Under the pieces are notes generated by a model. That model was not told the origin of the DNA. It did no database searches and saw only the letters and a list, made by a program, of their open reading frames with translations. From NCBI GenBank assembly GCA_008933045.1, contig WBXJ01000004.1, positions 1 through 34,711 on the forward strand: 34,711 nucleotides of DNA. The letters are read 5' to 3'. Both the position numbers and the translations under genes were made by a program. The DNA is from Verrucomicrobiota bacterium. GTDB taxonomy: Bacteria; Verrucomicrobiota; Verrucomicrobiia; Limisphaerales; SXQI01. This document shows, in pieces, positions 1,433-23,655 of the stretch (the stretch's first letter is position 1; each line of letters starts with the position of its first letter).

Positions 1433-1532
1433 TCTGATCTCCACAAAACCATCCGCGCCGCCCCGTGGTCGAATGGATCCTGTTTTCCCTTGCACCAGGG
1501 CGATTTCTGGTTAGGCTGAACCTGCATCCATT

Positions 1533-1608
1533 GGGGTCGTAGCTCAGTTGGTAGAGCGTCTCGTTCGCAATGAGAAGGTCAGGGGTTCGACTCCCCTCGG
1601 CTCCACCA
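1533..1608 (+). tRNA. tRNA-Ala (anticodon CGC), CCA encoded
   Basis: ggggtcgtagctcagttggtagagcgtctcgttcgcaatgagaaggtcaggggttcgactcccctcggctccacca. Acceptor stem GGGGTCG/CGGCTCC includes the G3:U70 pair. Anticodon loop is TTCGCAA. Confidence 0.95.
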
Positions 1609-1700
1609 ATTTTCTTGGCTGCGTTCTGGAATCGCTTTGCGAGATCACGTTTGAAGCTGGCACCTTTTCTGGTCGTCAGATATGATGTGAGCTCTGCACT

Positions 1701-4700: not shown

Positions 4701-4844
4701 GGTTGGATCAATCCTGCGGAACTGGCCACGGGTAAGAACGAACCCGCAAAACTTCCACCCAACACAAATCCCACGCAACTCGCCGCCTACACCGTGGTGA
4801 GCCGAGCCTTGCTGAATTTGGACGAAGCAATCACCAAGGAGTAA
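1701..4844 (+). CDS. Planctomycete-type cytochrome c domain protein (PSCyt1 / DUF1549 / DUF1553)
   Basis: N-terminal signal-like segment. Heme motif CYACH in [24 protein letters not shown]1549-like [39 protein letters not shown]. Second CAQCH. DUF1553-like C-terminus ending [11 protein letters not shown]. Confidence 0.92.
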
Positions 4845-4866
4845 TCTTACCTCGAAAGCGAATTCT

Positions 4867-6303
4867 ATGAATAAGTTTGAGCAACTTCTCCATCAACAAC
4901 GCCAGTTCACGACCCGCCGTTGGTTTTTCAAGGAGTGCGGTGTTGGTTTAGGCGCAATCGCCCTGCGTGGGTTGTTAGGCCAGAACTCGGCTCAGGCGGC
5001 GGCTCCTGCGGGATTGCATCCGCTTGCTCCCAAGAAAAGTCATTTCCCGGGTAAAGCAAAACGGGTCATCTACCTCTTTATGGCCGGTGCTCCGAGCCAT
5101 TTGGAACTCTTCGATTACAAACCACAGCTTGCAAAATTTAATGGGACATTGCCGCCCGAGGAATTGATCAAAGGTTATCGAGCGGCTTTTATCAATCCGA
5201 GTAGCACTCTTCTCGGCCCCAAATTTAAATTCGCGAAACATGGAAAATCGGGTGCTGAACTTTCCGAGGTTCTTCCCTATCTTGCGGAAGTCGCGGACGA
5301 TATTGCGATCGTCCGATCCATGCATACCGATGCGTTTAATCATGCTCCTGCTCAGATCATGATGAACACGGGTTCTCAACAATTTGGCCGCCCCAGCCTC
5401 GGTGCATGGACGACTTACGGGCTGGGTTCGGAAACACAAGATTTACCTTCCTACGTGGTTTTCAGCACCGGCGGCAAGGGAACCAGCGGCGGTGCCTCCA
5501 ACTGGGGTTCAGGATTCCTTCCCGCCTTCCATAACGGCACTCTATTCCGGACCGGTGGCGATCCCGTATTGTATCTTTCTAATCCCAAGGGTGTGGATGA
5601 TCCCATGCAAAAGGACACACTCGATACCATCAACCGTCTGAATTCGAAACGACTCGGAACGATTGGTGACCCCGAAATTGCCGCGCGGATCAATGCCTAC
5701 GAGATGGCTTACCGCATGCAACACGTCGCGCCAGAGGTCATGGATATTTCCAAGGAACCTCAGCATATCCGGGACATGTATGGTGCGGAACCCGGCAAAC
5801 CCACCTTTGCAAACTCCTGCCTTCTCGCTCGGCGTTTGATCGAAAAAGGAGTGCGCTTTGTTCAGATATTCCATGAGTCTTGGGATCAACACGGCAGCCT
5901 GAAAAAAGATTTAAAGCACAATTGTGAGGTTACAGATAAAGCAAGCGCGGCCTTGGTCAAAGACCTCAAGCAACGCGGATTGCTTGAGGATACGATCGTC
6001 ATCTGGGGTGGCGAATTTGGGCGCACCCCCATGGTGCAGGGAGGGGATGATGGGCGAGATCATCACCCGAATTGTTTTTCCATGTGGATGGCGGGCGGAG
6101 GCATCAAGCCAGGCCTAACCTTGGGTGCGTCAGATGATTTTGGATTTAATGCTACCGTGGACAAAGTCCATGTGCATGACCTCCATGCCACCCTTCTTCA
6201 TTTGCTCGGCTTTGATCACACCAAGCTAACGCACCGGTTCCAAGGCCGAGATTTTCGACTGACGGATGTCAGTGGGGAAGTTGTGACAAAACTCCTCGCC
6301 TAA
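4867..6303 (+). CDS. DUF1501 domain-containing protein with Tat-like signal
   Basis: [23 protein letters not shown] Tat-like N-terminus. [15 protein letters not shown] and [39 protein letters not shown] are DUF1501 (sulfatase-like) signatures. Located 22 nt after the DUF1549/1553 gene. Confidence 0.92.
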
Positions 6304-6322
6304 ACTTCGGCATCGTGCGGGT

Positions 6323-7195
6323 ATGGAACCAGAATCCAGCAAAAGCCCGCAAGTGCTGACAATCCATGATCAACCGGAAGCACCCTCGGGAATGGCGCCT
6401 TGGACGTGGTCGGAGCTTTTTCCGGACGCGGATTATCGTTTCAATTTTCAATTTAAACGCGGCCTCATTTCGTCGTTTTACCAGCCGAGCGCACGCGGAT
6501 CACTCGCACTCCGCGAGCGCGCACGATTGCTGACCCACCATCGCGCCGATTGTCTCGCCTGGCTTCCTTCGAGCGAGGGAGCTATTGCTGATGCCCATCA
6601 GGTATTTGCCGACCTTGGGCTTGTCCCAAACCCGAATGCTTCCAACCCAACGGAATCGCTGCTCGCCCTTGGACAATCTCTGGAGGCAGATCTAATTCTG
6701 CTCCAGATCACGGAGAACCAGCCCGTGGTCATCGCAGGTGTCGCCTGTTTTCCTACAGGTTGGAGCTTACCCGCTAAACTGGGACGGTCACTCTTGGGAG
6801 TTCACCATGAGGTCCCGGAGTTGAATGAGGAACTCGGATCGAGGATCCATCGGTTCCTCAGTGGTTTGAAACCGGAAACCTCCTGGGAACGGGCTAACTG
6901 GGGACTTGCTGCGACTTCGCAACTCAATCTTAACCCTTCGACATTTTTCCCACGGTTGACCGCCGAGACTCCACTTGAGGAAATTTATGTTCGAGTCGAA
7001 ACGCAATCCTTGACCCTACTTCCGACGAGCGCGGCCATTCTTTTTGGCATCCGAATCCACCTCACCCCATTGCTGAGTCTCTGGAGCCACTCGGAACTTC
7101 GACAACGAATCCAACGCGCTCTGCGAACCCTGCCACCCGCGTTGGCCGATTACAAAGGCCTAACCTCCATCAGGGCAAAGTTGATCGAATACTAA
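6323..7195 (+). CDS. DUF3445 / heme-dependent oxidative N-demethylase (HODM) alpha-like protein
   Basis: VVIAGVACFPTGWSLPAKLGRSLLGVHHEVPELNEELGSRIHRFLSGLKPETSWERANWGL and EIYVRVETQSLTLLPTSAAILFGIRIHLTPL match the remembered DUF3445 pattern (AGVVCFPSGW, RANW, R.E.QTL..LP.S.AI.F.IR). Confidence 0.8.
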   Translation: MEPESSKSPQVLTIHDQPEAPSGMAPWTWSELFPDADYRFNFQFKRGLISSFYQPSARGSLALRERARLLTHHRADCLAWLPSSEGAIADAHQVFADLGLVPNPNASNPTESLLALGQSLEADLILLQITENQPVVIAGVACFPTGWSLPAKLGRSLLGVHHEVPELNEELGSRIHRFLSGLKPETSWERANWGLAATSQLNLNPSTFFPRLTAETPLEEIYVRVETQSLTLLPTSAAILFGIRIHLTPLLSLWSHSELRQRIQRALRTLPPALADYKGLTSIRAKLIEY

Positions 7196-7220
7196 TCATG
7201 CACCGGCGAGTATCGAACGA

Positions 7221-7874
7221 TCATTCGCTCTGCCAAGTTTCCACAGGAAACTCGAGACTGCGCCAACAATACCACGCGGCGATACTGGCGTAGGGAGCCC
7301 ACGGAGCGGCGATCTGATGGGCTTGCTTCTTATCGGGGGCTTCCTTCAATCGGTAGATATTGCGTAGAGCATTGCGTATGCCCAAATCCTCAAACGGAAA
7401 CACGTTGGGTCGATTGAGGGAGAAGATCAGAAACATTTGGGCGGTCCAGACTCCGATGCCCTTGACCTGAGTCAACTCCTTGATGACCTCATCATCGTTA
7501 AGTCGGTGCAGTTGGGCTAATCGCACGGTGCCAGCAACCACTTTCTCGGTGAGATCGCCGAGATACCGACGCTTCTGGGGGGAAAGTCCAGCGGCCTGCA
7601 TTTGTTCCTCGCTGAGTGCCGCGACGATCGCCGGCTCCATTCCATCCGGAGCGATGGTTTCGATAAGCCGACGATGGATCGAATCCGCAGCCTTGGTTGA
7701 AATCTGTTGGGAGATAATCGATTTAACCAACGTGGCGTACCGCTGACGATGGCGAGGGAGTTGGCAGGGACCCACCTTCTCGATCACGCGACGAAGCACT
7801 GGGTCAGCGGTCTTCAAATGGGCCACAGCATCGACCAACCAAGGAGGTGCGGCATCGTTGGTGATCGATTTCAT
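7221..7874 (-). CDS. DNA-3-methyladenine glycosylase II-like (HhH-GPD family)
   Basis: SIISQQISTKAADSIHRRL, VKGIGVWTAQMFLIFSLNRPNVFPFEDLGIRNAL (HhH plus catalytic Asp region), APWAPYASIAAWYCWRSLE. Start overlaps the hflX stop by 4 nt (ATGA). Confidence 0.88.
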   Translation of the reverse strand: MKSITNDAAPPWLVDAVAHLKTADPVLRRVIEKVGPCQLPRHRQRYATLVKSIISQQISTKAADSIHRRLIETIAPDGMEPAIVAALSEEQMQAAGLSPQKRRYLGDLTEKVVAGTVRLAQLHRLNDDEVIKELTQVKGIGVWTAQMFLIFSLNRPNVFPFEDLGIRNALRNIYRLKEAPDKKQAHQIAAPWAPYASIAAWYCWRSLEFPVETWQSE

Positions 7875-9175
7875 AGATTTGTCGACGTGTGAGCATCTCC
7901 GACAATATAGGGGGCAAATTCTGCGTGCAAATAGGGCGGGATGCGTGCTTTGAATCGGGCTTGTTGACCTTCAAAATCTTTCTCCACAACTTGGGCGACG
8001 CTATACAAGCGAGCCATCACATGGCCGGCTTGGTGTGGGATTTCTAAATCCAAAAACTCACGAACCGGCCGCAACGCAATGCCAAGCTCGCCCATCAGCA
8101 ACTCGAGACCCTCGCCCGTCTTGGCGGAGATGGGGACGCCCTGCGGATATTGTTCCAGAAAACGGGCCAGCAATCCTTCCTGATTATGCTTATCAACTTT
8201 GTTAAAGACCATCAAGGTGGGCTTGCTAGCGGCACCTAACTCCTGCAACACCGTGTTGACCGCGAGGATTTGTTCATCCGCATGCGGGTGGCTGACATCA
8301 ACCACATGCACAAGAATATCGGCTTGAATCACCTCCTCAAGCGTCGCCTTGAAGGCCTCCACTAATCCATGGGGCAACTTGCGAATGAATCCTACCGTGT
8401 CTGAGAGCAGGACGTTTTGGTTTGTAGGCAATCGTAACCGGCGCGTGGTCGGGTCAAGTGTCGCGAAAAGTTTGTCTTCAGCGAGCACGGTCGCACCTGT
8501 CAGCGTGTTTAAAAGAGTAGATTTACCCGCATTCGTATAACCCACGATCGAAGCCATGGGCCATTGGTTGCGTTGCCTGCCCGCACGCTGAGTGGTTCGC
8601 TGCTTTCGCACGATCTCCAACTCGCTCCGCAATCGTTCTATACGCTCCTGAACCTTGCGACGGTCTGCCTCCAGTTGAGTCTCCCCTTCACCGCCCCGCA
8701 TTCCGATACCGCCCTTTTGGCGCGATAAATGCGTCCAATACCGTGTCAGGCGAGGAAGCAGGTGTTCCAGTTGCGCCAATTCGACCTGCAACCGACCCTC
8801 ACGCGTCCGCGCACGTTGTGCAAAAATATCGAGAATCAGTTGGGTGCGATCCAATATCTTGCATTCAAAAAGCTTTTCCAAATTGCGTCCCTGCGCGGCA
8901 GAAAGGTCATCGTCAAAGATAACCGTATCAACCAAATCCTCCTTGCACCGACGCGCCAACTCCTCCGCCTTGCCGGGCCCGATGTAAGTTGCAGCGGTTG
9001 GTTTTTCGATTTTTTGCGTCGCCACGCCAACCACATCACCTCCGGCGGTGACGGCTAACTCCGACAATTCCTCCAGAGAATCATGAAGATCCCAGTGGGA
9101 ACGGGATTTAAGCTCGGCCCCGATGAGAAATACCCGTTCGGTTTTTCGGCGAGCAGTTTCGATTAGTGATTTCAA
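7871..9175 (-). CDS. hflX: GTPase HflX
   Basis: GKAEELARRCKEDLVDTVIFDDDLSAAQGRNLEKLFECKILDRTQLILDIFAQRARTREGRLQVELAQLEHLLPRL; GGEGETQLEADRR; Walker A GYTNAGKSTLLN; DTVGFIRKLPHGLVEAFKATLEE; NKVDK. Confidence 0.96.
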   Translation of the reverse strand: MKSLIETARRKTERVFLIGAELKSRSHWDLHDSLEELSELAVTAGGDVVGVATQKIEKPTAATYIGPGKAEELARRCKEDLVDTVIFDDDLSAAQGRNLEKLFECKILDRTQLILDIFAQRARTREGRLQVELAQLEHLLPRLTRYWTHLSRQKGGIGMRGGEGETQLEADRRKVQERIERLRSELEIVRKQRTTQRAGRQRNQWPMASIVGYTNAGKSTLLNTLTGATVLAEDKLFATLDPTTRRLRLPTNQNVLLSDTVGFIRKLPHGLVEAFKATLEEVIQADILVHVVDVSHPHADEQILAVNTVLQELGAASKPTLMVFNKVDKHNQEGLLARFLEQYPQGVPISAKTGEGLELLMGELGIALRPVREFLDLEIPHQAGHVMARLYSVAQVVEKDFEGQQARFKARIPPYLHAEFAPYIVGDAHTSTNL

Positions 9176-9223
9176 TTGGGTAAAATGACTATGAACCTAC
9201 GGTAACCAAACGCAATCATTGCC

Positions 9224-9718
9224 TCAGCCTGGTTGTTGTGCTTTAAGAAAACCTACTTGAAACCACGTCGCCATATTGATGGCCCATGTCAGCTCGATGG
9301 TAGCCTCACTAAGCTGAACACCCGTCATCAATTCGATATCAGCGGGACAGCCTAAACGCATCCAACTCCCAACGCGGACATCATTCAGAATTTGCAGCAT
9401 GATTTCCAACTGATCAGGCGTGAGTAAAAGCCGCACCCCTCGAGGATCCTCGGCCCAACTGTCCTCATTTCTTAGAATGTTTTTGAGCTCAAGTCGGATC
9501 TGTTGGCGGGCTTGAGTTAAGGCCTCCGCCAATAATTGTTCCTCACCATCCGGAAGGATATTGAGGGCGGTTGATCGTTCGCCTTGATAGCTGTCAGTCG
9601 TCACCGGATATCGCTGGAGCAACTCTAATAAGATCCGTCGCGCTTTTTTTCCAATGAGAAATGTGCAGCCGTCGTGGTTACGACTTAGCAGCTTCATACC
9701 TAATCCATCCTTAGACAT
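9224..9718 (-). CDS. DUF2017-like protein, clpS neighbour
   Basis: 164 aa. Partial resemblance (ILNDVRVGSWMRLGCPADIE) to DUF2017, which in other lineages sits beside clpS. ORF start overlaps the end of clpS by 8 nt. Confidence 0.6.
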   Translation of the reverse strand: MSKDGLGMKLLSRNHDGCTFLIGKKARRILLELLQRYPVTTDSYQGERSTALNILPDGEEQLLAEALTQARQQIRLELKNILRNEDSWAEDPRGVRLLLTPDQLEIMLQILNDVRVGSWMRLGCPADIELMTGVQLSEATIELTWAINMATWFQVGFLKAQQPG

Positions 9719-10016
9719 CAGCTTTTTCTAAGGTGGCGTGGAGAGCATACTTTTGCAGGGTGTGTGCGTAATGCTCCGCCTTCTCCAAACATTCACAAGC
9801 CACCACGCTTCGCCCCTGATGATGCACTTCCAGCATGTGCTGCTTCGCCTTGGCTTGATCCCAACCAAACACCCGTTGGAAGACATGGGTGACATACTCC
9901 ATCAGGTTGATGGGGTCGTTCCAACAAATCACCAAAAAACTCGGATCAAAATCCGTTTGGTTTTTTGACTGCGCATCAACCTTCGGTGTTGATTTGGTTT
10001 TTGTTGTGGCCACCAC
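9711..10016 (-). CDS. clpS: ATP-dependent Clp protease adaptor ClpS
   Basis: VICWNDPINLMEYVTHVFQRVFGWDQAKAKQHMLEVHHQGRSVVACECLEKAEHYAHTLQKYALHATLEKA closely follows the ClpS core. Confidence 0.93.
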   Translation of the reverse strand: MVATTKTKSTPKVDAQSKNQTDFDPSFLVICWNDPINLMEYVTHVFQRVFGWDQAKAKQHMLEVHHQGRSVVACECLEKAEHYAHTLQKYALHATLEKADV

Positions 10017-10082
10017 GCGGATACCCTACGAAAGAAATCCCATCATTTCAAGCCATCGAAGCGGTTGACCTTGCTTGCGCTC

Positions 10083-10117
10083 AAAAAAAACCCGCACGAC
10101 CTGATGGACGTGCGGGG
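10083..10117 (-). terminator. Rho-independent terminator downstream of the ThuA/DUF1080 gene
   Basis: Minus-strand reading: cccgcacg-tccatcaggt-cgtgcggg followed by tttttttt. Perfect 8-bp stem plus 8-nt U-tract, 20 nt past the stop at 10138. Confidence 0.9.
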
Positions 10118-10137
10118 CGATACTTTTCAATAATTAT

Positions 10138-11520
10138 CTACTTCAACGGAAGGATCCGCATGTTTCTGAAAGCTACGGAACCATGATCACCTTGCAGAAA
10201 GAACGGGCCCGGCTCATTGATATTATCGTCCAACTGACTGCCGGTGGGCTTCGGAACATCCGCATCCGCATGCACCTTCACGCCATTCAGAAACACGGTC
10301 ACCTTCTGACCCCGCATCGTGACTTCCGCATGCTGCCACTCACCCGCTTTGCGAGAAACAAAGAGGGTGGGAGGTGCCGTGTTGTAGATACCACCGTTAC
10401 CGCCCATGGCAGGTTTACCGGAGCTATAGTCGTCATAAATCTGAATCTCATGACGTCCGCGCAGGTAGAAACCGCTGTTTGCACCTTTGGGCACACGATA
10501 TTCGTAACGAACTTTGAAATCGCGGAACTTTTCATCACCCACCAAGTCCGTGCCATGTTGACCCTCCGCCACTGTGTTCACGAGGATCCCATCCTGAACG
10601 CTCCAACTTGGAGTGCCATCCGCCCGGCGCAGATGCCATCCGCTTAAGTTCTGACCGTTGAACATCGATTTCCAGCCCGCAGCCTTTTCCTCCGCGCTCA
10701 GGCCTGACGGAGTGCTCGTTGGGGCACCCCCCGCCGGCACCAAACCCAACGCCCATTGAATGCCTCCGAGAATGTGCTTTTGATAAGCTTCGCTAGTCCA
10801 AACATCTTCGCGGTGCCCAAGCGAGGTGTAGAACAATCGGCCCTTGCCAATGTTTTTGCTCCACGAGATAGGATAATCACCGGGTTGGCCAGTGTTCGGG
10901 TGCTTATCCAGAGTGAGCAGGCCATGAACCTGATCCCGTTGGAAGCTTTTCATGATATAAATCTCGTCATGCACAGAAAACTTCGGGCCTAAATGCGCGG
11001 TTGCGGGGTGATCAGCCTGGTCATTATTGCAATTCACTGTGGCTTGCGCACCGTGAGTCAAAAATTCGCCACCCAACATGTCAATGTAGGGCTTAAAACC
11101 GTGGAAGGTATCGCTGGCCGCGTGCATTCCCACAAAAGCATGCCCCGCCTCCACATAATCAATCAGGGCCTTGGGTTCCGGCAGTGGCAGATCCCCCGTG
11201 GTATTTGCAAAGATTACACCATCATAATTCTTAAGCGATTCAGCCGTCATCTTGGCCTTCACATCCTCGCTCCCCTTCCCATCAGCGCCCCCTCGGACAA
11301 AATCAACCGTCCATAAACCCGTCTGTTCCCCCATGCTTTCCAGCACACGCTCTGCCGTGCCAATCGAGCTGTGACGGAAGCCTTGGGTGGCAGTCACCAC
11401 TAATAATTTTTTTGGAGCGGCCCACGCTGGGACGACCGCAGCCATAGAGAGTGCCAAGACCAGCGCGGCACGGTAGAGAGGTTTCATACAAGTTTTGTTC
11501 ATAATTGGGTTCAGACACAC
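10138..11520 (-). CDS. Secreted ThuA-domain + DUF1080 (3-keto-disaccharide hydrolase-like) protein
   Basis: Signal peptide MKPLYRAALVLALSMAAVVPAWA (the true start is probably one of the internal Met codons). ThuA-like DGVIFANTTGDLPLPEPKALIDYVEAGHAFVGMHAASDTFHGFKPYIDMLGGEF. DUF1080-like GWKSMFNGQNLSGWHLRRADGTPSWSVQDGILVN, RGRHEIQIYDDY and FLQGDHGSVAFRNMRILPLK. Confidence 0.92.
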   Translation of the reverse strand: MCLNPIMNKTCMKPLYRAALVLALSMAAVVPAWAAPKKLLVVTATQGFRHSSIGTAERVLESMGEQTGLWTVDFVRGGADGKGSEDVKAKMTAESLKNYDGVIFANTTGDLPLPEPKALIDYVEAGHAFVGMHAASDTFHGFKPYIDMLGGEFLTHGAQATVNCNNDQADHPATAHLGPKFSVHDEIYIMKSFQRDQVHGLLTLDKHPNTGQPGDYPISWSKNIGKGRLFYTSLGHREDVWTSEAYQKHILGGIQWALGLVPAGGAPTSTPSGLSAEEKAAGWKSMFNGQNLSGWHLRRADGTPSWSVQDGILVNTVAEGQHGTDLVGDEKFRDFKVRYEYRVPKGANSGFYLRGRHEIQIYDDYSSGKPAMGGNGGIYNTAPPTLFVSRKAGEWQHAEVTMRGQKVTVFLNGVKVHADADVPKPTGSQLDDNINEPGPFFLQGDHGSVAFRNMRILPLK

Positions 11521-11961
11521 AGCCTAAGCTAAAGGTTCACTCGGATCCAATGATAAGACGCGGTGGAATCGAGAGAATTCAATAAACGAAAAAACTTACT
11601 AATCGCAAGCCGAAAACCTACCTCGGATTTCACGGGCATGGCTAATTCATGAGAGGATTTTTAGTGGAGGACGGTTGATCAATACCCAGTTAATGGCTCG
11701 CGTGGAAGTTTTGGTGGATTTGGTTTTGCTAATCGAACAAACATGAATGAATGCCGCCCGTCTGCCGAAAGCGATTCGTGAGGCATTTCAACGTAGGAAG
11801 ACGCACGGGATTCCTCCTGCACTCGCCCTGCCTCCAGCCTCATGATCTGGGGGATTTTCTGCTTCGCGAACCGTTGTGCCCAAGCTCTAGTGATTCGGAA
11901 TCGATTGCGTTGGGATTGTATTTGATGCTGCTTTGCGGTTTCAATAGCCTTCGCCCTATCC

Positions 11962-13326
11962 ATGGACCATTCTTGCGACGAACTTTCCCGAGCTGAGCAA
12001 ATTGCTACAATGCGAAAGGTCACTTGGCGGCTCATCCCATTGTTGTCCTGTTGTTACTTGATCGCTTATGTGGACCGGATCAATGTCGGATTCGCGAAGC
12101 TTCATTTGCACGCTGCGCTCGGGGTAGATTCCAGAATCTACGATAGTGTTTTTGGTCTGGGAGCAGGTATCTTTTTTATTGGTTACTTGTTTTTCGAAGT
12201 GCCAAGCAATTTGATTCTGGAACGAGTCGGAGCCCGTTTTTGGTTCGCTCGCATCATGATTGTTTGGGGCATTGTTTCCATGGCTTTCATGTTCCTCAAG
12301 GGCGTAACTATGTTTTATAGTTTGCGGTTTTTGCTGGGGGCTGCCGAGGCCGGTTTCGCGCCGGGGGTGTTGTTGTATCTCACTTATTGGTATCCGGCTA
12401 AGGAGCGAGCGCAGATCATCGCATTGGTCGCCATGGGAGGCGTGGCGGCAGGGGTGGTGAGTTCTCCGATCTCCGGTGCCTTACTCAATTTGGATGGCCT
12501 TCTGGGATTGGAGGGTTGGCAATGGCTCTTTTTTGTCGAAGCGTTACCGGCCATTTTGATGGGGTTCGTGGTCCTGGCTGTCCTGCCGGATCGTCCGCAA
12601 GACGCTCGTTGGCTTTCCGAACGGGAGAAGCGTTGGGTTCAATCGCGGGTGGATGCCGAGGTGAGACCTAACAGCGTGGGTCAGGGTGCGAGTTTATTGG
12701 CGATTTTTTCGAACGGCGGCGTCTGGATGTTTTGTGCTATTTATTTCCTCATGAACATGGGGGGATATGGCTACGAAATGTGGCTGCCGAGTATCGTAAA
12801 AAGCTTGTCTGGAAAGGGCGATGTGACGGTGGGGTTTATCAATGCGATCCCCTATTTTGCCGCTGGCGTCGCGATGTATTGGGTTGGCAGAAATTCAGAT
12901 AGGACCGGCGAAACCCGCTGGCACATCGCGATCGCAGCTCTCCTCGCGGCCTTGGGTTTCTTGGTCGCGGCCACGGTGGCTAATCCCTACATCGCCATGG
13001 CAGGTCTAACCCTAGCCTTCGCCGGCATGAAATCGACTATCGCGCCGTTTTGGGCGGTGACCACCACGTTCATGTCGGGCGCGGCGGCCGCCGGCGGCAT
13101 CGCATTTATTAACTCGGTCGGAAATCTTGGCGGCTTTTTCGGCCCCTCCCTTGTCGGCTTTGCGAAGGATCACTCAAAGGACGGCAATTTTGCGGCCTTG
13201 TTGATGCTAGGTGGGGCACTCGTGTTGATGGGGGTCCTCGCTCTGATCACGTTCAAGACCCAAAGCCCCTTCCTTCGAAGGATGGCACAAGGGAAGGCCC
13301 CAATCTTTGGTGTCAAGGCGGAGTAG
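11962..13326 (+). CDS. MFS transporter (anion:cation symporter / phthalate-permease-like)
   Basis: RLIPLLSCCYLIAYVDRINVGFAKL, FFIGYLFFEVPSNLILERVGARFWFARIMIVWGIVS, FLLGAAEAGFAPGVLLYLTYWYPAKERA. Multiple TM segments. Confidence 0.93.
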   Translation: MDHSCDELSRAEQIATMRKVTWRLIPLLSCCYLIAYVDRINVGFAKLHLHAALGVDSRIYDSVFGLGAGIFFIGYLFFEVPSNLILERVGARFWFARIMIVWGIVSMAFMFLKGVTMFYSLRFLLGAAEAGFAPGVLLYLTYWYPAKERAQIIALVAMGGVAAGVVSSPISGALLNLDGLLGLEGWQWLFFVEALPAILMGFVVLAVLPDRPQDARWLSEREKRWVQSRVDAEVRPNSVGQGASLLAIFSNGGVWMFCAIYFLMNMGGYGYEMWLPSIVKSLSGKGDVTVGFINAIPYFAAGVAMYWVGRNSDRTGETRWHIAIAALLAALGFLVAATVANPYIAMAGLTLAFAGMKSTIAPFWAVTTTFMSGAAAAGGIAFINSVGNLGGFFGPSLVGFAKDHSKDGNFAALLMLGGALVLMGVLALITFKTQSPFLRRMAQGKAPIFGVKAE

Positions 13327-13738
13327 ATTTCTCCCGGCAACCTACGCCGATTTTTTGGTGTCTGGTCGTTTGATCCAGCGGTTAGCCTGTGATCGATATG
13401 CCGCTGACAATATGCCAAGCGATTTTACAGCATGTGGTTTGCGCGACAACTACACCCGTGGCGAGTGGCAGCAACGCAAAGGCTGGCTGGAAACAGTGTC
13501 GCAATCCCTTGTGTTACTGCCGTTCTCGACGCCCCGCAAACAGCACTGTTACTGAAACTAGAAAAAGCGCACCAATCGGACTTTTCATTCGCTTGAACCA
13601 TGGGAATAAAACCGCTTCAAACGTCAGTGACGCAAAGGGTTCTACGGCTTTGCTGCTCCGAGAGTTTGAGGAGCTAACTCGCGTGCTTCTAGTGTTGGAT
13701 TCCTCGCATCCAAGCTGCAAAACAGATGCTCATGTCTT

Positions 13739-15454
13739 TTAATGGGAGGGCCCTCCTGCTTTTACCCAAGAATCTTTGAGCGTTACAGTGCGGTTGAAGA
13801 CGGGTCGTTCGGGCTTGGAGTCTTTCGGATCAACCTGGAAATAGCCGATTCGTTCAAATTGGTAACTCTTATCCGGGCTCGCTTGGGCTAGGCTAGGTTC
13901 GAGTTTTGCGTTCGTAATGGTTTCCAGCGAGTGAGGATTAAGAAACGTCTTAAAATCCCGGCCTTCCGAGTCACCATCGGGTGATTCGACGGTAAACAAC
14001 CGGTCATAAAGTCGAACCTCAGCCTCCAACGCATGGTCGGCGGAAACCCAATGGATGGTTCCCTTTATCTTGCGCCCCGACGTAATCCCCCCTGATTTTG
14101 AATCGAGATCCACACTGCATTTGAGTTCGATTACCGTTCCGTGCGCGTCTTTGATGACCTCCTCACATTTCAGAATGTAGGCGTAGCGCAACCGCACTTC
14201 ACCCCCAGGAATGAGCCGGAAGAATTTCTTCGATGGAACCTCCATGAAGTCGTCCTGCTCAATGAAGATCGTGCGTGAAAATGGCAACCGTCGCGTGCCG
14301 TCGCCTAGGTTCTCTGGATTGTTGATGGCCTCAAGTTGCTCGACCTGTCCCTCGGGGTAATTCAGGATTTCAACTTTCAAGGGTCGCAAAACGGCCAACG
14401 TGCGAAGTGCCCGCTTATTGAGATCCTCGCGTAAGGAGTATTCAAGCAACGCAATATCGGTCAGGCCATTATATTTCGTGACACCAATGCGCTTGCAGAA
14501 AGCACGAATCGCGCTCGGCGTAAATCCTCGGCGTCGGAGACCAGCCAAGGTCGGCATCCGTGGATCATCCCAGCCCGAAACCAGTCCTTCCTGCACGAGT
14601 TGCAGGAGCTTGCGTTTGCTCAACACGGTGTAGCTCAGGTTGAGGCGTGCAAATTCGATTTGCTGCGGATGCGCCGGCACAGGGAGCTGATTGAGAATCC
14701 AATCGTAAAGCGGTCGATGCACCTCAAATTCCAACGTGCAAATCGAGTGCGTAATCGTTTCCAGCGCATCGGAAAGGCAATGCGCGTAATCGTAGATCGG
14801 ATAAATACACCATTGATTGCCGGTGCGATGATGGAATGCGTGCCGAATGCGATACAGACCGGGATCACGCAAGTGTATGTTGGGTGAAGCCATGTCGATC
14901 TTCCCTCGCAGCGTACGGGCACCATCCGGAAATTCACCCGCTCGCATCCGTTGGAACAGGTCGAGATTCTCTTCCACAGTGCGGTTGCGCCACGGGCTGG
15001 GAGTCCCGGGAACTGTGGGAGTGCCACGGTCGCGTTTGAACTCCTCGGCACTTTGATCGCACACATAAGCATGGCCCGAACGGATTAGTTTGAGTCCAAA
15101 CTGATAAAGTTGTTCAAAATAATCCGAGGCGTAAAATTGATGCGCTCCCCAGTCAAAACCCAGCCATCGCACATCCTCTTGAATGGAATGCACATACTCG
15201 ATCTCCTCTCGAGTCGGGTTCGTATCGTCAAAACGCAGATGGCACCGGCCCCCTGAATGTTCAGCGGCAATGCCAAAATTGAGGCAGATCGATTTGGCAT
15301 GCCCAATATGCAGATAGCCGTTGGGTTCGGGCGGGAACCGTGTGATGACGTTACTCTCATTCTTACCAGAGAGAATATCAGCAGCCACGATTTCGCGAAT
15401 GAAGTCTGAAGCGACGGCTTCAACTTGCTCGGATGGATTCGGTTCTGTGGACAT
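13739..15454 (-). CDS. glnS: Glutaminyl-tRNA synthetase
   Basis: Class I motifs [21 protein letters not shown] (HIGH) and YTVLSKRKL (KMSKS variant). [42 protein letters not shown]. Confidence 0.97.
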
Positions 15455-15585
15455 ACATCAAAGAAAACTAGAATGCGGTGAACAACTGAAAAAACTCAAG
15501 TTTATCACGTCGATATGTCGTGTAGTTTTTGAACGGAGACTTCTTAAAATACAGGACCATGGGTTTTGTTCTGGGGTCTGGGCCA

Positions 15586-15758
15586 TGACGAAGGTAAGTG
15601 TGGAACCAGAAAAACAATTGGAGATGGATCCTGTGGATGATCGTCGAGGGTTTAGCAGTGGGTGTTTTTTACCTTCCACGAAATCGATGGCCGCTTTTCC
15701 CACAATCATGCTCGCAGCGCGGGTTAAACCGATCGCAACGGCCGAAACCCAGACTTGA
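15586..15758 (+). pseudogene. Degenerate, frameshifted fragment of the ankyrin-repeat protein C-terminus
   Basis: tgtggaaccagaaaaacaattggagatgga aligns with tatggaaccaaaaaaacaattggggctgga of the intact gene (26/30 by hand). After a 1-nt deletion it encodes GFSSGCFLPSTKSMAAFPTIMLAARVKP against GFRPGNFKPSFETIAAIHQAMLACGVTP with no further gap. A net 2-nt deletion lies just before the WNQKNNW segment. Confidence 0.8.
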
Positions 15759-15794
15759 ACAACGAGAATTACGTAGTAAAAAGGAGCACAGCCA

Positions 15795-18140
15795 ATGAAG
15801 TTCTTGCCGTCGTTCCACATTCGCTTCCTCAGCGCGTTGTTCGCCGCGATCACGCTTAATCCGCGCGCGATGCCCGCTGTTCCTAACGAAACAGCCAAAG
15901 TGTTGAAAAAATACTGTTATGATTGCCATGATCGTGAAGTGCAAAAGGGGTCACTCAATCTGGAGGCTTTGGTGGGAGTGCGCGTTGACGAGAATGGCGA
16001 CGCGTGGGAAAAAGTAATTCGAAAAGTAAATTCACGGCAGATGCCTCCCATTGGCAAGCCGCGTCCGAATGAAAAAACATACCATGAGGTGATCGGGGAA
16101 CTGGCCACGGCACTCGACATAATCGCCGCAAAGAATCCGAACCCAGGCCGCACCGAGACATTTCGCCGGCTGAATCGGACTGAATATCAGAATGCCATCC
16201 GCGATCTGCTTGGAGTAGAAATCGACGCCACGGCACTGCTCCCGAAGGACGAGGCGAGTCATGGTTTTGACAACGTCACGGTCGGAATGCTTTCGCCAAC
16301 CCTTCTGGGCCGCTACATCACCGCCGCTCAAAAGATCAGTCAATTAGCCATCGGCGCGCCGCGCAACAAACCGGGGGGCGACACCTACCGCATTCCTGCG
16401 GACGTAACGCAGGAATCGCACGTTGAGGGGCTACCTTTGGGCACGCGCGGTGGGAAGTTGATTCGCCACACCTTTCCCGTCGATGGCGATTATGATTTTC
16501 AGATTCGACTGGCTCGTGATCGAAACGAAGAAATTGAAGGGTTGAATGGGACGTATAACCTTGAACTGATCCTCGACCAGGATTGCATTCAATCCTTCAC
16601 CGTGGCACCGCCAGTGGTCCCCAACGATTACGAGAGTGTGGATGGAAAACTGAAAATTCGCGCGCCGGTGAAAGCCGGATTTCATGAAGTCGGCGTTACG
16701 TTCGTCCAAAGCTCCGCCGCGTTGCTCGAGCGAAAACGCCAGCCTTACTCGGTGGCCTTTAATATGCACCGGCATCCGCGTTTGAGTCCCGCCATCTACG
16801 AGGTTTCCATCACCGGCCCCTATAACTCAACGGGCTCAGGAGATACGCTGAGCCGCCGGCGGATTTTTGTGGCGAAGCCTTCGCGGGCCTCCGAGGAGGA
16901 ACCGTGCGCGGAGAAAATTCTTTCGTCGCTGATGCGGCGCGCCTTTTGCCGTCCAGTCACGAAAGAAGACATGGATCTGCCGATGAGTTACTTCCGTAAA
17001 GCCAGGGCGCAGGACGGTTTTGAGGCTGGCATTGAGACGGCCTTGAGTTCAATTCTGGTCAGCCCTCACTTTCTTTTCCACATCGAGCAAGATCCGGACG
17101 GGGTTTCGCCGAAGACCGCGTACCGTCTACCTGACCTTCAACTTGCCTCGCGTTTGTCATTTTTCATCTGGAGCAGCATCCCGGACGATGAGTTGCTGGA
17201 TTTAGCGAGCCGGAGCGAACTCAGCAAACCGAAAACACTTGCGAAGCAAGTTAAACGGATGCTCGCAGATCCCCGCGCGCGCAGTCTGGCGACCAATTTC
17301 GCGGACCAATGGCTGTATCTCCGGAACCTCAACTCCCTCTCGCCGGATGCGCGGCTTTTTCCGGATTTCGACGACAACCTGCGTCAGGCCTTCCGGCAGG
17401 AAACAATCCTCTTTTTTGAAAGCATCTTGGAAGGAGATCAAAGCGTCTTGCGACTGCTCAAAAGCGACTACACTTTTCTGAATGATCGGCTGGCGAAGCA
17501 TTATGGCATCACTGGAATTCAGGGCAGCCATTTTCGTAAAGTGGCACTGAAGCCCGACAGCAAACGGGGCGGGTTGCTCCGCCACGGAAGCATTCTTTCC
17601 GTGACCTCATACGCCACGCGCACTTCGCCGGTGATCCGTGGCCACTGGATTCTTGGCAATCTGCTCGGCTCGCCGCCGCCTCCACCGCCGGCGGATGTGC
17701 CCGCGCTTAAAGAAAGGACAATTTCTTCAACGTTGTCGGGTCGCGAACGCTTGGCGCAACACCGAGCCAATCCGGCATGCGCGAGTTGCCACAACCTGAT
17801 GGACCCGGTCGGCTTCTCTTTAGAGAATTTCGATGCGTTGGGCCGTTGGCGGGATTTGGAGGACGGCAAACCAGTAGACGCTTCGGGTGGATTTCCGGAT
17901 GGGAGCCAATTGACGGGAGTCGATGCCCTCGAACAAACGCTTTTGAAACGACCGGACTTATTTGTCGGCACATTCGCCGAGAAACTTCTCACCTTTGCTC
18001 TTGGCCGCGGGATTGAATCGTACGATGGGCCTGCCATTCGCAAAATCGTCAATCAAACCGAAGCTGATGACTTTAGATTTTCGTCCCTGATCATTGCGGT
18101 CGTAAACAGCGTGCCCTTTAAAATGAGGAACTCCCTATGA
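15795..18140 (+). CDS. Planctomycete-type cytochrome c domain protein (PSCyt3 / DUF1587 / DUF1595 / DUF1592 / DUF1588 / DUF1585)
   Basis: CYDCHDREVQKGSLNLEAL, FRRLNRTEYQNAIRDLLGVEIDATALLPKDEASHGFDNV, RLSFFIWSSIPDDELLDLA, FADQWLYLRNL, KRGGLLRHGSILSVTSYATRTSPVIRGHWILGNLLGSPPPPPPADVPALKE, CASCHNLMDPVGFSLENFDALGRWR. aaggag RBS at about 15781-15785. Confidence 0.94.
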   Translation: MKFLPSFHIRFLSALFAAITLNPRAMPAVPNETAKVLKKYCYDCHDREVQKGSLNLEALVGVRVDENGDAWEKVIRKVNSRQMPPIGKPRPNEKTYHEVIGELATALDIIAAKNPNPGRTETFRRLNRTEYQNAIRDLLGVEIDATALLPKDEASHGFDNVTVGMLSPTLLGRYITAAQKISQLAIGAPRNKPGGDTYRIPADVTQESHVEGLPLGTRGGKLIRHTFPVDGDYDFQIRLARDRNEEIEGLNGTYNLELILDQDCIQSFTVAPPVVPNDYESVDGKLKIRAPVKAGFHEVGVTFVQSSAALLERKRQPYSVAFNMHRHPRLSPAIYEVSITGPYNSTGSGDTLSRRRIFVAKPSRASEEEPCAEKILSSLMRRAFCRPVTKEDMDLPMSYFRKARAQDGFEAGIETALSSILVSPHFLFHIEQDPDGVSPKTAYRLPDLQLASRLSFFIWSSIPDDELLDLASRSELSKPKTLAKQVKRMLADPRARSLATNFADQWLYLRNLNSLSPDARLFPDFDDNLRQAFRQETILFFESILEGDQSVLRLLKSDYTFLNDRLAKHYGITGIQGSHFRKVALKPDSKRGGLLRHGSILSVTSYATRTSPVIRGHWILGNLLGSPPPPPPADVPALKERTISSTLSGRERLAQHRANPACASCHNLMDPVGFSLENFDALGRWRDLEDGKPVDASGGFPDGSQLTGVDALEQTLLKRPDLFVGTFAEKLLTFALGRGIESYDGPAIRKIVNQTEADDFRFSSLIIAVVNSVPFKMRNSL

Positions 18141-19477
18141 TTATCACCAAAAAATTCCTGCCCCGAAGGACCTTTCTGAAGTCGGTGGGCGCCACATTGG
18201 CTCTGCCCTTGCTGGACGCGATGATTCCTGCAGCCACGGCACTGGACAAAACGGCGGCTAAACCCATCCGTCGCCTCGGGTTTGTTTTCATGCCGATGGG
18301 ATGCGACCAATCCCGCTGGACACCGCGCAGCGAGGGAACTCTCGATGAACTTTCGCCGATTCTCGACTCGCTCGCGCCGGTCAAGAACCACTTGACTGTG
18401 CTGACGAACATGGAATTGGCCAACGCCTATCCTGGATCCCACGCCACCTCCAATGCTGCTTTCCTCAGCGCCGCCAAAGCGAAGCACACGGAAGGAAGTG
18501 ATTATTATTTGGGCACCACCGTCGACCAAATTGCGGCTCGACAGGTCGGGCTGGCAACGCAGCTTCCTTCCCTAGAAATGTCGATGGATTTAATGCAGAC
18601 CGTTGGCCAATGCGACAACGGTTACGCCTGCGTCTATCAAAATAATCTTTCATGGTCTTCACCCACCACGCCGTTGCCTGCTGAAGCGCATCCTCGAATC
18701 GTATTTGAAAGCCTGTTTGGCGAGGGTGGCAACGCGGCTGAACGTCAGGCGACCCTGCGAAAGCGCGCCAGCCTGCTGGACGGTTTCAACCACGAAATTT
18801 CGCGTCTCAAAAGAAAAGTGGGCCTTGGCGATCGCGCCAAGATCGACCAGTATCTTGAAACGGTGCGCGAGGTGGAACGCAGGATTCAGCGCGCGGAAGC
18901 AGACGCCGCAAACACCGCGTTGCCCGATTTGGATCGGCCCCTGGGGGTGCCGCCGGCGTACGCGGATCATGCGCGGCTCATGTTCGATCTGCAATTGCTT
19001 GCCTTTCAGGGGGATGTCACTCGCGTGATTACCTTCCAACTTGCGCGCGAAACCAGCAATCGGACCTATCCGGAGATTGGCGTCCCAGATCCCCATCATC
19101 CCCTTTCCCATCACGGGAATGACCCCGACAAAATCGCGCGCATGGCCAAGATCAATGCGTTCCACGTCTCTCTTTTCGGGGAGTTTCTACAAAAGCTGAA
19201 AAACACACCGGAAGGAAATGGCTCCCTCCTCGATCACTCCCTCTATCTTTACGGTAGCGGCATTGGCAATCCGAACGTGCACGACCACACCAATCTCCCG
19301 ATTATCTTGGCCGGCGGAGCGGCGGGAGGCATGAAAGGAAATCGGCATATTCGATTTAAAAAGCCAACGCCGCTGGCGAACCTGCATCTGACGTTGCTGG
19401 ACAAAGTGGGGGTGCGGCTCGATTCATTTGCGGATAGCACCGGCAAACTCACCGACCTGTTTCCTCTTTCGATGTGA
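18137..19477 (+). CDS. DUF1552 domain-containing protein with Tat-like N-terminus
   Basis: PRRTFLKSVGATLALPLLDAM; FVFMPMGCDQSRWTPRSEG; LDGFNHEISRLKRKVGLGDRAKIDQYLETVREVERRIQ; SLYLYGSGIGNPNVHDHTNLPIILAGGAAGGMKGNRHI. ATG overlaps the upstream stop (ATGA). Confidence 0.92.
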   Translation: MIITKKFLPRRTFLKSVGATLALPLLDAMIPAATALDKTAAKPIRRLGFVFMPMGCDQSRWTPRSEGTLDELSPILDSLAPVKNHLTVLTNMELANAYPGSHATSNAAFLSAAKAKHTEGSDYYLGTTVDQIAARQVGLATQLPSLEMSMDLMQTVGQCDNGYACVYQNNLSWSSPTTPLPAEAHPRIVFESLFGEGGNAAERQATLRKRASLLDGFNHEISRLKRKVGLGDRAKIDQYLETVREVERRIQRAEADAANTALPDLDRPLGVPPAYADHARLMFDLQLLAFQGDVTRVITFQLARETSNRTYPEIGVPDPHHPLSHHGNDPDKIARMAKINAFHVSLFGEFLQKLKNTPEGNGSLLDHSLYLYGSGIGNPNVHDHTNLPIILAGGAAGGMKGNRHIRFKKPTPLANLHLTLLDKVGVRLDSFADSTGKLTDLFPLSM

Positions 19478-20880
19478 GACTCGCGCGCATCTTTATTTGC
19501 TTCCTGCTGGCCGGCATTTTGATCCGGGCGGATAATATTTTCACGCCTTTGATCGACGCGGCGCGGAACAACGATCTTGCCCAAGTCAAAGCACTTTTGA
19601 AAGCCGGCGCGGATGCGAACGAGACCAACCGTTATGGAATATCGCCTCTTTTGATGGCCTGCCAAAACGGCAACGCCGAGATAATTAAATCGTTGTTAGC
19701 CGTTGGCGCAGACGCGAACACCCATGCACGGAGTTCCGAAACGGTTTTAATGACCGCTGCTCGCACCGGCAATGCCGAGTGCGTTCGAGCACTCCTTGCC
19801 AAAGGGGCCAACGTGAATGCCAAGGAACGTCGGGGGCAAACGGCGATCATGTGGGCCGCCGCCGAAGGGCACGCCAACGTCGTGAAGTCGTTGCTGGAGG
19901 CTGGCGCCGATTTTCAAACTCCACTCGATGGCGGATTCACCCCCTTCTTGTTTGCCATTCGCGAAGGCCGCGCCAACGTCGTCAAACTTCTTCTCCAAGC
20001 TGGCGTCGATGTAAACGAGCCGATACGGGCCAAACGCAAAGTCGGGCGCGGCCCACAGGCTGGAATGACTCCGTTGCTCATGGCGGTTGAAAATGGCTAC
20101 TTCGAAATGGCGATTGATCTGGTCAAAGCGGGTGCCGATCCGAACGACCAACGCGGCGGTTACACAGCTCTGCACAACATCACTTGGGTTCGCAAACCCA
20201 ACCACGGCGAGGATGAAGACGGCGCGCCGCCGCCCGATGGCTCCGGCAACATCGATTCCCTTGCGTTCGTCCGCAAACTCGTCGCCCTAGGCGCCAACGT
20301 GAACGCGCGCATCGCCAAAGGGCACGGTGGCAAAAATCTCCTCAACACCACCGGCGGCACTCCGTTCCTTCTCGCGTCCAAGACTGCGGACATCGCCCTC
20401 TTGAAATTGCTCTACGACTTGGGGGCCGACCCGACGATCACTAATGTGGATGGCGACACACCGCTGATCGCTGCGGCTGGGTTCGGCACACCGACGGCGG
20501 GTGAAGTCGCCGGCGAGGAGCCAGAAGTGTTGGAAGTTCTCGAATGGCTTTTGACAATTGGCGCCGATATCAACGCCGTCGACAAGCATGGCGAAACGGC
20601 CATGCACGGTGCTGCTTACAAGAATTTGCCCAAAGTCGTCCATTTCCTCGCCAACCACGGCGCGAAGGTCGAAGTATGGAACCAAAAAAACAATTGGGGC
20701 TGGACGCCGCTGTTGATTGCTGAAGGGTTTCGTCCGGGAAACTTCAAGCCTTCCTTCGAAACGATTGCCGCGATTCATCAAGCCATGCTTGCCTGCGGTG
20801 TGACGCCGCCGCCACCCACTAGTGCCAAAGGCGTCAATAACAGTGACTTCGTGCCGCCAGAGAAAAAATCCATCCCCTAA
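19474..20880 (+). CDS. Secreted ankyrin-repeat protein (GTG start)
   Basis: N-terminal signal-like MRLARIFICFLLAGILIRADN. Multiple ANK repeats (TPLIDAARNNDLAQVKALLKAGADANETNRYG...). Start overlaps the DUF1552 stop (GTGA). C-terminal tail WNQKNNWGWTPLLIAEGFRPGNFKPSFETIAAIHQAM. Confidence 0.92.
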   Translation: MRLARIFICFLLAGILIRADNIFTPLIDAARNNDLAQVKALLKAGADANETNRYGISPLLMACQNGNAEIIKSLLAVGADANTHARSSETVLMTAARTGNAECVRALLAKGANVNAKERRGQTAIMWAAAEGHANVVKSLLEAGADFQTPLDGGFTPFLFAIREGRANVVKLLLQAGVDVNEPIRAKRKVGRGPQAGMTPLLMAVENGYFEMAIDLVKAGADPNDQRGGYTALHNITWVRKPNHGEDEDGAPPPDGSGNIDSLAFVRKLVALGANVNARIAKGHGGKNLLNTTGGTPFLLASKTADIALLKLLYDLGADPTITNVDGDTPLIAAAGFGTPTAGEVAGEEPEVLEVLEWLLTIGADINAVDKHGETAMHGAAYKNLPKVVHFLANHGAKVEVWNQKNNWGWTPLLIAEGFRPGNFKPSFETIAAIHQAMLACGVTPPPPTSAKGVNNSDFVPPEKKSIP

Positions 20881-20889
20881 CAGTCTTTG

Positions 20890-21579
20890 TCATTCCGCGC
20901 CAAACACGCTTGAGAAAACCGCTTCTTTAATTTTCCAAATCAGCGTCATCGTCATCGCCAAGGGTAGCAGGATCAACACTGCAAATAATCCCAGAACCAA
21001 TGGTTTCGCGAAGGTCAGCGCAAGCATTACACGAATGAGCCAATCGGGTAAGTTTGTGATCTGTAACAGCACCAAATATCCTGCCAGTCCACCAAGAACC
21101 AGAAGTAATAGGATACGATTTAGATTACCGAAAATTCGCGTCTCCGACCGCAGCGTTTCATCGGGGAGCATCGCCGCCAGACGTTGCAGAACGAGGTTCA
21201 GATTGAAAATAAACAGCACACCCGAAACCAATAACATTCCGACGGCGATATTGTAAAAAAGGATGCTGGGTAATTGACCCCACCAGAAACAAAATGGGGA
21301 TAAGCCGATATTGACGACCGCAACCAATTTCGCACGGTCGAGAGCCAGTCGCCACACACGTTCTTGCTGTTGAAAATGACTCAGCAACGCGAGTCCATAA
21401 AAGAGCAATGCCGTGGCACCGACGGGTGCCAAAATAAATAGCGGCTTTGTCCACTCGACCGTCGCAATTTTGACGCAAACAAACAACGCGATGGGTAAAC
21501 CCCAAAAGAGCGCGGATAACCCACGCACCAAACGACCCAAGGAGCGAAGCAGTTCGGTTTTGGGTACGTAATCAGACAT
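20890..21579 (-). CDS. Hypothetical integral membrane protein
   Basis: 229 aa with several long hydrophobic segments. Starts 17 nt after the speA stop on the same strand. Confidence 0.7.
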   Translation of the reverse strand: MSDYVPKTELLRSLGRLVRGLSALFWGLPIALFVCVKIATVEWTKPLFILAPVGATALLFYGLALLSHFQQQERVWRLALDRAKLVAVVNIGLSPFCFWWGQLPSILFYNIAVGMLLVSGVLFIFNLNLVLQRLAAMLPDETLRSETRIFGNLNRILLLLVLGGLAGYLVLLQITNLPDWLIRVMLALTFAKPLVLGLFAVLILLPLAMTMTLIWKIKEAVFSSVFGAE

Positions 21580-21596: not shown

Positions 21597-23534
21597 TCAG
21601 AAGGAAAGGTAAGTGTATTCCTTCAAGCCTCGCTCATACTCATCGAGCAAACGCATCGCCTCGGAGGGCTTTAATCGGTCGCTCTTGATCGCTTCATCCA
21701 TCTGGGCCTTCATCTGTCGCTTGAGTTCGTGCTCGTCATACTGCACTGCAGCCAAGGTCTGCACGATCGTGTTCCCTTCGATGACTTCCTCAATATAATA
21801 GCCTGCGGGTTCATCGGGATCTAGAAACACATGGACCTCGTTGACGCGGCCAAAAAGGTTATGCAGATCGCCCATGATATCCTGATAGGCTCCCATCAGA
21901 AAAAATCCGAGATAATAGGGTTCCGTTCCTTGCGCGTTCGTCTTGAGCGCATGGAGGGGTAACGTGTCATGCACATCGCGTAGCCCCACAAACTTGTTGA
22001 TCTGACCATCGGAGTCGCACGTGATATCAACCAGCGTCCCTTCGTTCGTTGGTGCCTCATCAAGTCGATGAACCGGCATGATCGGGAATAGTTGTCCCAG
22101 TGCCCAGTGATCGAGCAACGATTGAAAAACAGAAAAGTTACAGAGGTATTGATCTCCCAGCAGGTCTCCCAACTTCCGAATCTCAGCGGGAATATAAGCT
22201 TGCCCCTTAAAACTCTCGACGACTTTGCCGCTGATCTCCCAGTAAAGACTCTCGATTTTGGCCTTCTCCGGCAACTCCATCAAGCCAAGGGTAAACATGT
22301 TATGCGCATCCTCCTTACGCTCCAGCGCATCATGAAAGGCCTCCAGCTTATTCAGCTTTGCGAAGTTCTTATTGATGTCCAACAGCTCTCTGACAAGCGC
22401 ATGCTCGTTCTCGCCATAAGTGAGGCCAAGGTCCTCACGGTTTTTTGCAATCGCACCAAAGACTTCAACAATGAGCACGCTGTGATGAGCCACAATCGCC
22501 CGACCACTCTCGCTTACGATGATAGGATGGGGCACCTTTTCCGCGTTGCAGACATCCCCGATGTAATACACCACGTCGTTTGTGTATTCTTGCAGCGAAT
22601 AATTCGTGGAATTATCGAACGCCGATCGGCTTCCATCATAATCCACTCCCAACCCTCCGCCCACATCCATGAACTCGATCAAAAAACCCATCTTATAGAG
22701 CTTGGCGTAAAACCGCGTCGCTTCCTGCACCGCCTTCTTGACGGTCAAAATATCGGGCACTTGCGACCCAATGTGGAAGTGCAGAAGTTTGAAGCAATGG
22801 CTCAAATTGTCTTTGCGCAACATTTCTGCCGCCGCCAAAAGCTCCCCGGTGCTCAATCCGAACTTCGCGTTCTCACCGCCACTCTCGGCCCATTTTCCCG
22901 CACCCTTGCTCAGCAACCGAGCGCGGATACCGATCAACGGTTCCACATTCATTTGCTTGGAGACCGTGAGGATCTGGCGCAACTCCTCAAGCTTCTCGAC
23001 AACCATGATCACTTTGCGCCCGAGCTTGATCCCCATCAACGCCATCCGGATAAACACCACGTCCTTATAACCGTTGCAAATGATCAGATCACCAATCTGT
23101 CGTTGAAGTGCTAGGCCAGCAAACAATTCGGGTTTGCTCCCGACCTCCAACCCAAATTGGAACGGCTTTCCGGCATCAAGAATTTCCTCCACCACCTCGC
23201 GAAGTTGGTTCACCTTGATCGGAAAAACGCCGCGGTATTGGCCTTGGTAATTAAACTCCACGATGGAGTTCCGAAACGCCTGGTTGATCGCCTCGACTCG
23301 ATGGCGCAAAATATCCTGAAAACGGATCAACAGCGGGAAACGCAAACCCCGCGATTTTGCCTCCTCGATCACATCCGTCAGGTCTACAGAAGCCCCCGCC
23401 TCTTGCAGTGGCGTCGCCACGACATGCCCCGCATCGTTGATGTCGAAGTATTTAGCTCCCCATCGGTCGATATTATACAGACCTCGGGCCGCGTTGACAT
23501 CCCACGGTTGGCGACTCTCTTGTGAATTACTCAT
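21597..23534 (-). CDS. speA: Biosynthetic arginine decarboxylase (PLP-dependent, SpeA type)
   Basis: YNIDRWGAKYFDINDAGHV, PLLIRFQDILRHRVEAINQAF, FPIKVNQLREVVEEIL, LHFHIGSQVPD, DVGGGLGVDYDGS, VSESGRAIVAHHSVL, FFLMGAYQDIMGDLHNLFGRVNEVHV. The ORF extends to 23612; MSNSQESRQPWDV at 23534 is the likelier start. Confidence 0.95.
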   Translation of the reverse strand: MSNSQESRQPWDVNAARGLYNIDRWGAKYFDINDAGHVVATPLQEAGASVDLTDVIEEAKSRGLRFPLLIRFQDILRHRVEAINQAFRNSIVEFNYQGQYRGVFPIKVNQLREVVEEILDAGKPFQFGLEVGSKPELFAGLALQRQIGDLIICNGYKDVVFIRMALMGIKLGRKVIMVVEKLEELRQILTVSKQMNVEPLIGIRARLLSKGAGKWAESGGENAKFGLSTGELLAAAEMLRKDNLSHCFKLLHFHIGSQVPDILTVKKAVQEATRFYAKLYKMGFLIEFMDVGGGLGVDYDGSRSAFDNSTNYSLQEYTNDVVYYIGDVCNAEKVPHPIIVSESGRAIVAHHSVLIVEVFGAIAKNREDLGLTYGENEHALVRELLDINKNFAKLNKLEAFHDALERKEDAHNMFTLGLMELPEKAKIESLYWEISGKVVESFKGQAYIPAEIRKLGDLLGDQYLCNFSVFQSLLDHWALGQLFPIMPVHRLDEAPTNEGTLVDITCDSDGQINKFVGLRDVHDTLPLHALKTNAQGTEPYYLGFFLMGAYQDIMGDLHNLFGRVNEVHVFLDPDEPAGYYIEEVIEGNTIVQTLAAVQYDEHELKRQMKAQMDEAIKSDRLKPSEAMRLLDEYERGLKEYTYLSF

Positions 23535-23655
23535 CAATCTTTCAGTGATGATGACTATAGAACCCAAGACAGCGATTTCAATATGGAGTACGTAAAATCT
23601 TTCACGCCCCACAACCGGGGCGACCCCACCTGAAATAGTTGCCGAGCAACCCTTG

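Follow-up and report, generated by a model that had tools for sequence, protein, structure and literature searches.

The window analysed here, 34,711 nucleotides of DNA from a Verrucomicrobiota bacterium, carries a three-gene operon (a DUF1592-type cytochrome gene, a DUF1552 gene and an ankyrin-repeat gene) inside an insert that two congeners lack, and just ahead of the first of these genes the end of an ankyrin gene survives as a decayed relic. Our favoured account is that this relic is probably what remains of a first copy of the cassette, which would have been present as a head-to-tail duplicate or concatemer and then been deleted but for the final ~140 bp of its ankyrin gene. The relevant features, in window positions, are as follows.

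13739 to 15454, minus strand: glnS, the left flank (Pfam).
15455 to 15513: ancestral glnS-side intergenic sequence, conserved with congener G003 (blastn block, joined-flank alignment).
15514 to 20891: lineage-specific insert of 5378 bp with relic and module, empty in congeners G003 and G002.
15514 to 15588: left end of the insert, 75 bp, GC 0.44, source not matched in sequence searches.
15589 to 15731, plus strand: decayed, frameshifted relic of an ankyrin 3' end (blastn, nhmmer, tail-protein search).
15732 to 15794, plus strand: spacer ahead of the DUF1592-type gene; its sequence includes AAGGAG, which resembles a ribosome-binding site; homology to the ankyrin end not significant.
15795 to 18140, plus strand: PSCyt1/PSD3/PSD5/PSD4/PSCyt3/PSD2 protein (DUF1587, 1595, 1592, 1588, 1585), 781 aa (Pfam).
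18137 to 19477, plus strand: HXXSHH (DUF1552) protein, 446 aa (Pfam, E 7e-96).
19474 to 20880, plus strand: ankyrin-repeat protein of 468 aa that starts with a signal-like segment; the module keeps this gene in third place (Pfam, comparison of loci).
20663 to 20808, plus strand: counterpart of the relic within the intact ankyrin gene (pairwise and profile alignment).
20890 to 21579, minus strand: 229-aa gene, the right flank; in both congeners it lies next to glnS on its upstream side (synteny).
21597 to 23612, minus strand: speA-type arginine decarboxylase, a syntenic marker (Pfam, synteny).

The module brings together PF07631, PF07627, PF07626, PF07624 and PF07637 in one gene, with PF07586 in the next, and is hence a PSCyt3/PSD4 plus DUF1552 pair completed by the ankyrin gene. 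The 781-aa protein shows two CxxCH haem motifs and an N-terminal signal-like segment, and the DUF1552 protein has a twin-arginine-like start (RRTFLKSVG). Both gene boundaries are 4-nt overlaps, which suggests that translation of the three genes may be coupled; in relatives the DUF1552 and ankyrin genes lie a median ~160 bp and up to 2 kb apart. No relative of the DUF1552 protein was found in the PDB by sequence. Its predicted fold is of low confidence (pLDDT 43 with 9 sequences, then 59 with 53), and the best Foldseek matches are mostly alkaline-phosphatase-superfamily sulfatases (E 0.02 or worse, TM about 0.2), which weakly hints at a relation to the sulfatase/alkaline-phosphatase superfamily. 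Most likely, the module would produce a redox/hydrolase assembly in the periplasm, to which the ankyrin protein would bind as a partner; that it is the scaffold of the complex is our guess.

The relic repeats the tail of the intact ankyrin gene on the same strand, with a frameshift. Pairwise local alignment of 15589-15715 with 20663-20792 scores 39, whereas 1000 dinucleotide shuffles averaged 11.6 (sd 1.35) and never exceeded 20, and the blastn comparison proposed in the earlier note gave significant matches (E 1.3e-7 in the window search, 5e-6 against the whole own genome). A DNA profile made of codon-aligned ankyrin genes from 17 relatives, with the window excluded, matches 15596-15731 in nhmmer at E 7.6e-9 (profile positions 1142-1278, one deletion), and so places the relic in the ankyrin family of the module. 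With a 90-aa ankyrin-tail query the own genome returns the gene itself and 15586-15669 (E 5.5e-4), and no other match. The first block of the relic contains the 26/30 nt match (VWNQKNNW) described in the earlier note, and past the 1-nt deletion the match does go on codon for codon, 49/90 bases matching ungapped compared with a mean of 22.5 matches (sd 4.2) at other ungapped offsets in the window. As for the 173-nt stretch that had been aligned, ~15589-15731 is well founded, and neither the extension 3' to 15794 nor one 5' into 15514-15588 showed significant homology; the latter segment matched nothing in the window or in the relatives' sequences compared. Weak DNA matches of the relic in G003:C150, G161 and G263 were discarded as short chance matches, with no ankyrin-profile support.

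About 48 codons near the end of the ankyrin gene survive in this truncated copy, whose reading frame is broken and which has stops within the tail-protein match. In the one-gap alignment the relic differs from the adjacent gene at 17/45, 14/44 and 20/44 sites of codon positions 1, 2 and 3, an almost even spread that indicates lost constraint, over a short segment, whereas functional relatives differ from the window's ankyrin gene by 0.20, 0.14 and 0.53 at these positions. With its frame shifted and the conserved RPGNFKPS motif broken, the relic reads as non-coding debris of an ankyrin gene end in neutral decay, as in a pseudogene. It has no function of its own as a protein, and may act passively as a spacer for the divergent promoters of glnS and the operon. 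Searches for promoters, terminators and Rfam families at the junctions gave no match.

The earlier note had also proposed looking for an empty site upstream of glnS in related genomes, and such a site is found in G003 and G002, where glnS, the 229-aa gene and speA adjoin one another and the intergenic gap is short. The window aligns with contig G003:C151 up to 15513 (722-2473 of the contig corresponding to window 13760-15513 in the blastn block) and resumes from 20892, with 19 nt of G003 intergenic sequence between the blocks, and G002 has the same compact gene order. Since the site is empty in both, 15514-20891 is a lineage-specific insert among the congeners compared, relic and module together, its right junction lying at the stop codon of the 229-aa gene. 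The notion of a module flanked by direct repeats stands as regards a relic on the same strand, and is corrected in that the relic is part of this larger insert. No close homologue of this ankyrin gene was found in genomes G001-G004 or elsewhere in the own genome; the congeners and one other family member gave only weak, partial ankyrin matches. The simplest history is a single gain after the split from G003, a gain being preferred to two losses by parsimony over three congeners only. The relic came with the cassette or arose later. Neither the insert nor its junctions show terminal repeats, inverted or otherwise, a target duplication, or a transposase, integrase or recombinase gene.

It should be noted that the insert splits glnS from the 229-aa gene and speA, which lie on one strand in the congeners, and because of this separation a new promoter for glnS may be required within the 340 bp of divergent sequence at 15455-15794 that contain the relic; a search there for a sigma-70-like site found none. 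Where the window has its insert, the G002 spacer between glnS and the 229-aa gene (L087, G002:C49, about 4140-4165) contains GCAGCAGG...CCTGCTG, an inverted repeat rich in GC that may be a terminator or attenuator. On the other side of glnS, tsf joins the contiguous genes directly in G002, and the window has ~12.2 kb of extra DNA between tsf and glnS (1433-13738), with a PSCyt2/PSD1 plus DUF1501 pair and HODM-like, HhH-GPD, HflX-like GTPase, ThuA/3-keto-disaccharide hydrolase and MFS genes; G003 carries unrelated sequence there. Lineage-specific DNA is thus present on both sides of glnS in the window.

Concerning the origin of the relic, its apparent closest kin depends on the alignment. With several small gaps, the relic is identical to the adjacent ankyrin gene at 90/124 positions (next best 83) and is its sister in the tree (UFBoot 92), with no neighbouring placement rejected by the AU test; with one gap, the version that nhmmer prefers, matches to the adjacent gene, L090 and L091 are 82, 80 and 79 of 133, and AU rejects no near placement. 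On the question raised earlier, whether the relic is closer to the adjacent copy, the gapped alignment favours that copy and the one-gap alignment separates no near placement. Identity is uneven along the relic (36/40 in the first block vs 54/84 afterwards, p 0.0025). The VWNQKNNW block is nearest to the adjacent copy, and in the post-deletion part L090, L091 and L106 are no worse matched than the adjacent gene (50 vs 49 of 90). That the relic is nearer to the adjacent gene than any functional homologue was considered and rejected, the adjacent tail being 0.78 identical to L089 and 0.73 to the relic. Divergence of the relic at codon positions 1+2 is JC 0.26-0.47, depending on the alignment, and four-fold sites between window and G003 give JC 1.0-1.13, i.e. 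~0.5 per lineage; because the former is below or about this neutral value, a duplication after the G003 split is possible.

In the account we favour, the cassette would have been gained in the window's lineage as a head-to-tail duplicate, or soon have become one, through tandem duplication or a concatemeric or circular intermediate. Such a duplication would put an ankyrin 3' end directly before the next DUF1592 gene, and a deletion would then have removed the first copy, sparing DNA of the left edge and the last stretch of the ankyrin gene, a remnant that would now be decaying between glnS and the intact operon. We prefer it because an ankyrin end followed by a DUF1592 start on the same strand is the layout of a head-to-tail junction. 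The suggestion made earlier that most of an upstream paralogous module or ankyrin gene has disappeared agrees with a decayed, same-orientation tail just before the first module gene, and loss of such a copy is likely. No intact tandem pair of modules was seen in any genome examined. The main rival to duplication and deletion is import of an already decayed relic, in which a donor's decaying ankyrin tail lay upstream of the module and was carried along on the transferred fragment; we give it a smaller but appreciable chance. The relic may indeed be older and derive from another ankyrin gene imported with the cassette, since it is nearly equally close to several ankyrin lineages and the AU test on the one-gap alignment rejects none of them. 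The entire insert is missing from the congeners, and some genomes (G040, G123, G143) have two modules, as this import would allow, but no donor-like arrangement occurs at any of the 54 loci with upstream sequence (those where 300 bp or more precede the DUF1592 gene), and both the gapped alignment and the first block favour the adjacent gene.

The other readings are considerably less probable than either duplication and deletion or import of an old relic. The earlier note had offered, as an alternative, entry of the module by recombination at an ankyrin tail; the recombination would be homologous and the relic the rest of a resident gene. We consider this unlikely and disfavour it because in the congeners the site holds just a short intergenic spacer, and nothing closely homologous to this ankyrin gene turns up in their genomes; bracketing repeats are moreover absent upstream at the 54 other loci, and terminal repeats or a target duplication were not seen. 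In its favour, two genomes have a tail remnant beside a module: in the window it lies upstream, and in G043 it lies downstream and is closer to other lineages (0.71 to L091) than to the ankyrin gene next to it (0.64). Vertical inheritance, with the module ancestral at the site and precisely lost in G002 and G003, is very unlikely: the module is widespread in the order (ankyrin gene in 70/320 genomes), but two precise losses leaving similar short spacers would be required, flanks mostly differ between loci, and glnS, the 229-aa gene and speA adjoin no other Limisphaerales module locus compared. Hardly credible at all is chance or low-complexity similarity, or a short unrelated coding or regulatory element upstream of the operon. 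An ORF does cross part of the segment, and promoters must lie in this divergent intergenic stretch, but the independent profile match, the shuffles and the ungapped continuation refute pure chance, no Rfam or promoter/terminator match was obtained, and the segment is not conserved upstream of other modules.

Regarding generality, the order DUF1592-type, DUF1552 and ankyrin gene on one strand is kept throughout the relatives compared from the same order and in Planctomycetota such as Singulisphaera, Tautonia, Paludisphaera and Limnoglobus; in Singulisphaera acidiphila the trio is at L158. In a tree of DUF1552 plus ankyrin sequences the window groups with aquatic Verrucomicrobiota (L151, L155, L171, L152-154; SH-aLRT 100), and only 2-3 phylum changes are required. 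Neighbourhoods mostly differ by locus, 60/117 module flanks sharing nothing with any other. Ankyrin-tail recombination as a spreading mechanism, as had been put forward, does not find support: an upstream ankyrin-tail relic was seen at 0/54 other loci, and the single downstream case is in G043 (L094, G043:C476, 3694-3936), a truncated second ankyrin gene ~30 bp beyond the intact one. That fragment joins profile positions 163-202 to 1091-1291, with an internal deletion of ~0.9 kb and a frameshift near its end, and is closer to L091-type tails than to the neighbouring ankyrin gene. The relic and one such remnant are too little to sustain a general route, and it is quite improbable that ankyrin 3' ends are recurrent recombination points for cassette exchange or amplification, of which the relic and the chimeric G043 fragment would be two scars.

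The clean empty site in two congeners documents the lineage-specific gain of an intact PSCyt/DUF1552/ankyrin operon, and in two phyla the three genes are kept as one unit. As a scar of the cassette's history the relic is minor, ordinary debris of genome evolution that alone reveals no transfer mechanism. The conserved trio offers a defined operon for testing what the "planctomycete-specific" cytochromes do.

In freshwater Verrucomicrobia, PSCyt2 and PSCyt3 genes usually adjoin one of two families of unknown genes, and the function of PSCyt genes and partner families is stated as unknown (PMC5615132). The module resembles the pairs of PSCyt3/PSD4-type (DUF1592/1588/1587/1585/1595) and DUF1552 genes of Planctomycetota and Verrucomicrobiota in domain make-up and in the adjacency of cytochrome and partner, and differs from them in the conserved third, ankyrin gene that completes the operon; a limited search of the open-access literature found no publication describing the trio. 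The discreteness of the insert and its empty site in congeners recall a cassette borne by an insertion sequence or integron, but no transposase or integrase, terminal inverted repeats or target duplication accompany it here. As in the remnants of tandem duplication and deletion, or of concatemer integration, a truncated, decaying 3' copy sits right before the intact unit and points the same way; unlike in those systems, neither the intact duplicate nor the junction is known here, and we infer the route. Pseudomonas encodes AnkB-type periplasmic ankyrin proteins beside catalase genes, and by analogy only, the module may be likened to this arrangement, with a putatively exported ankyrin protein encoded beside a haem/redox protein.
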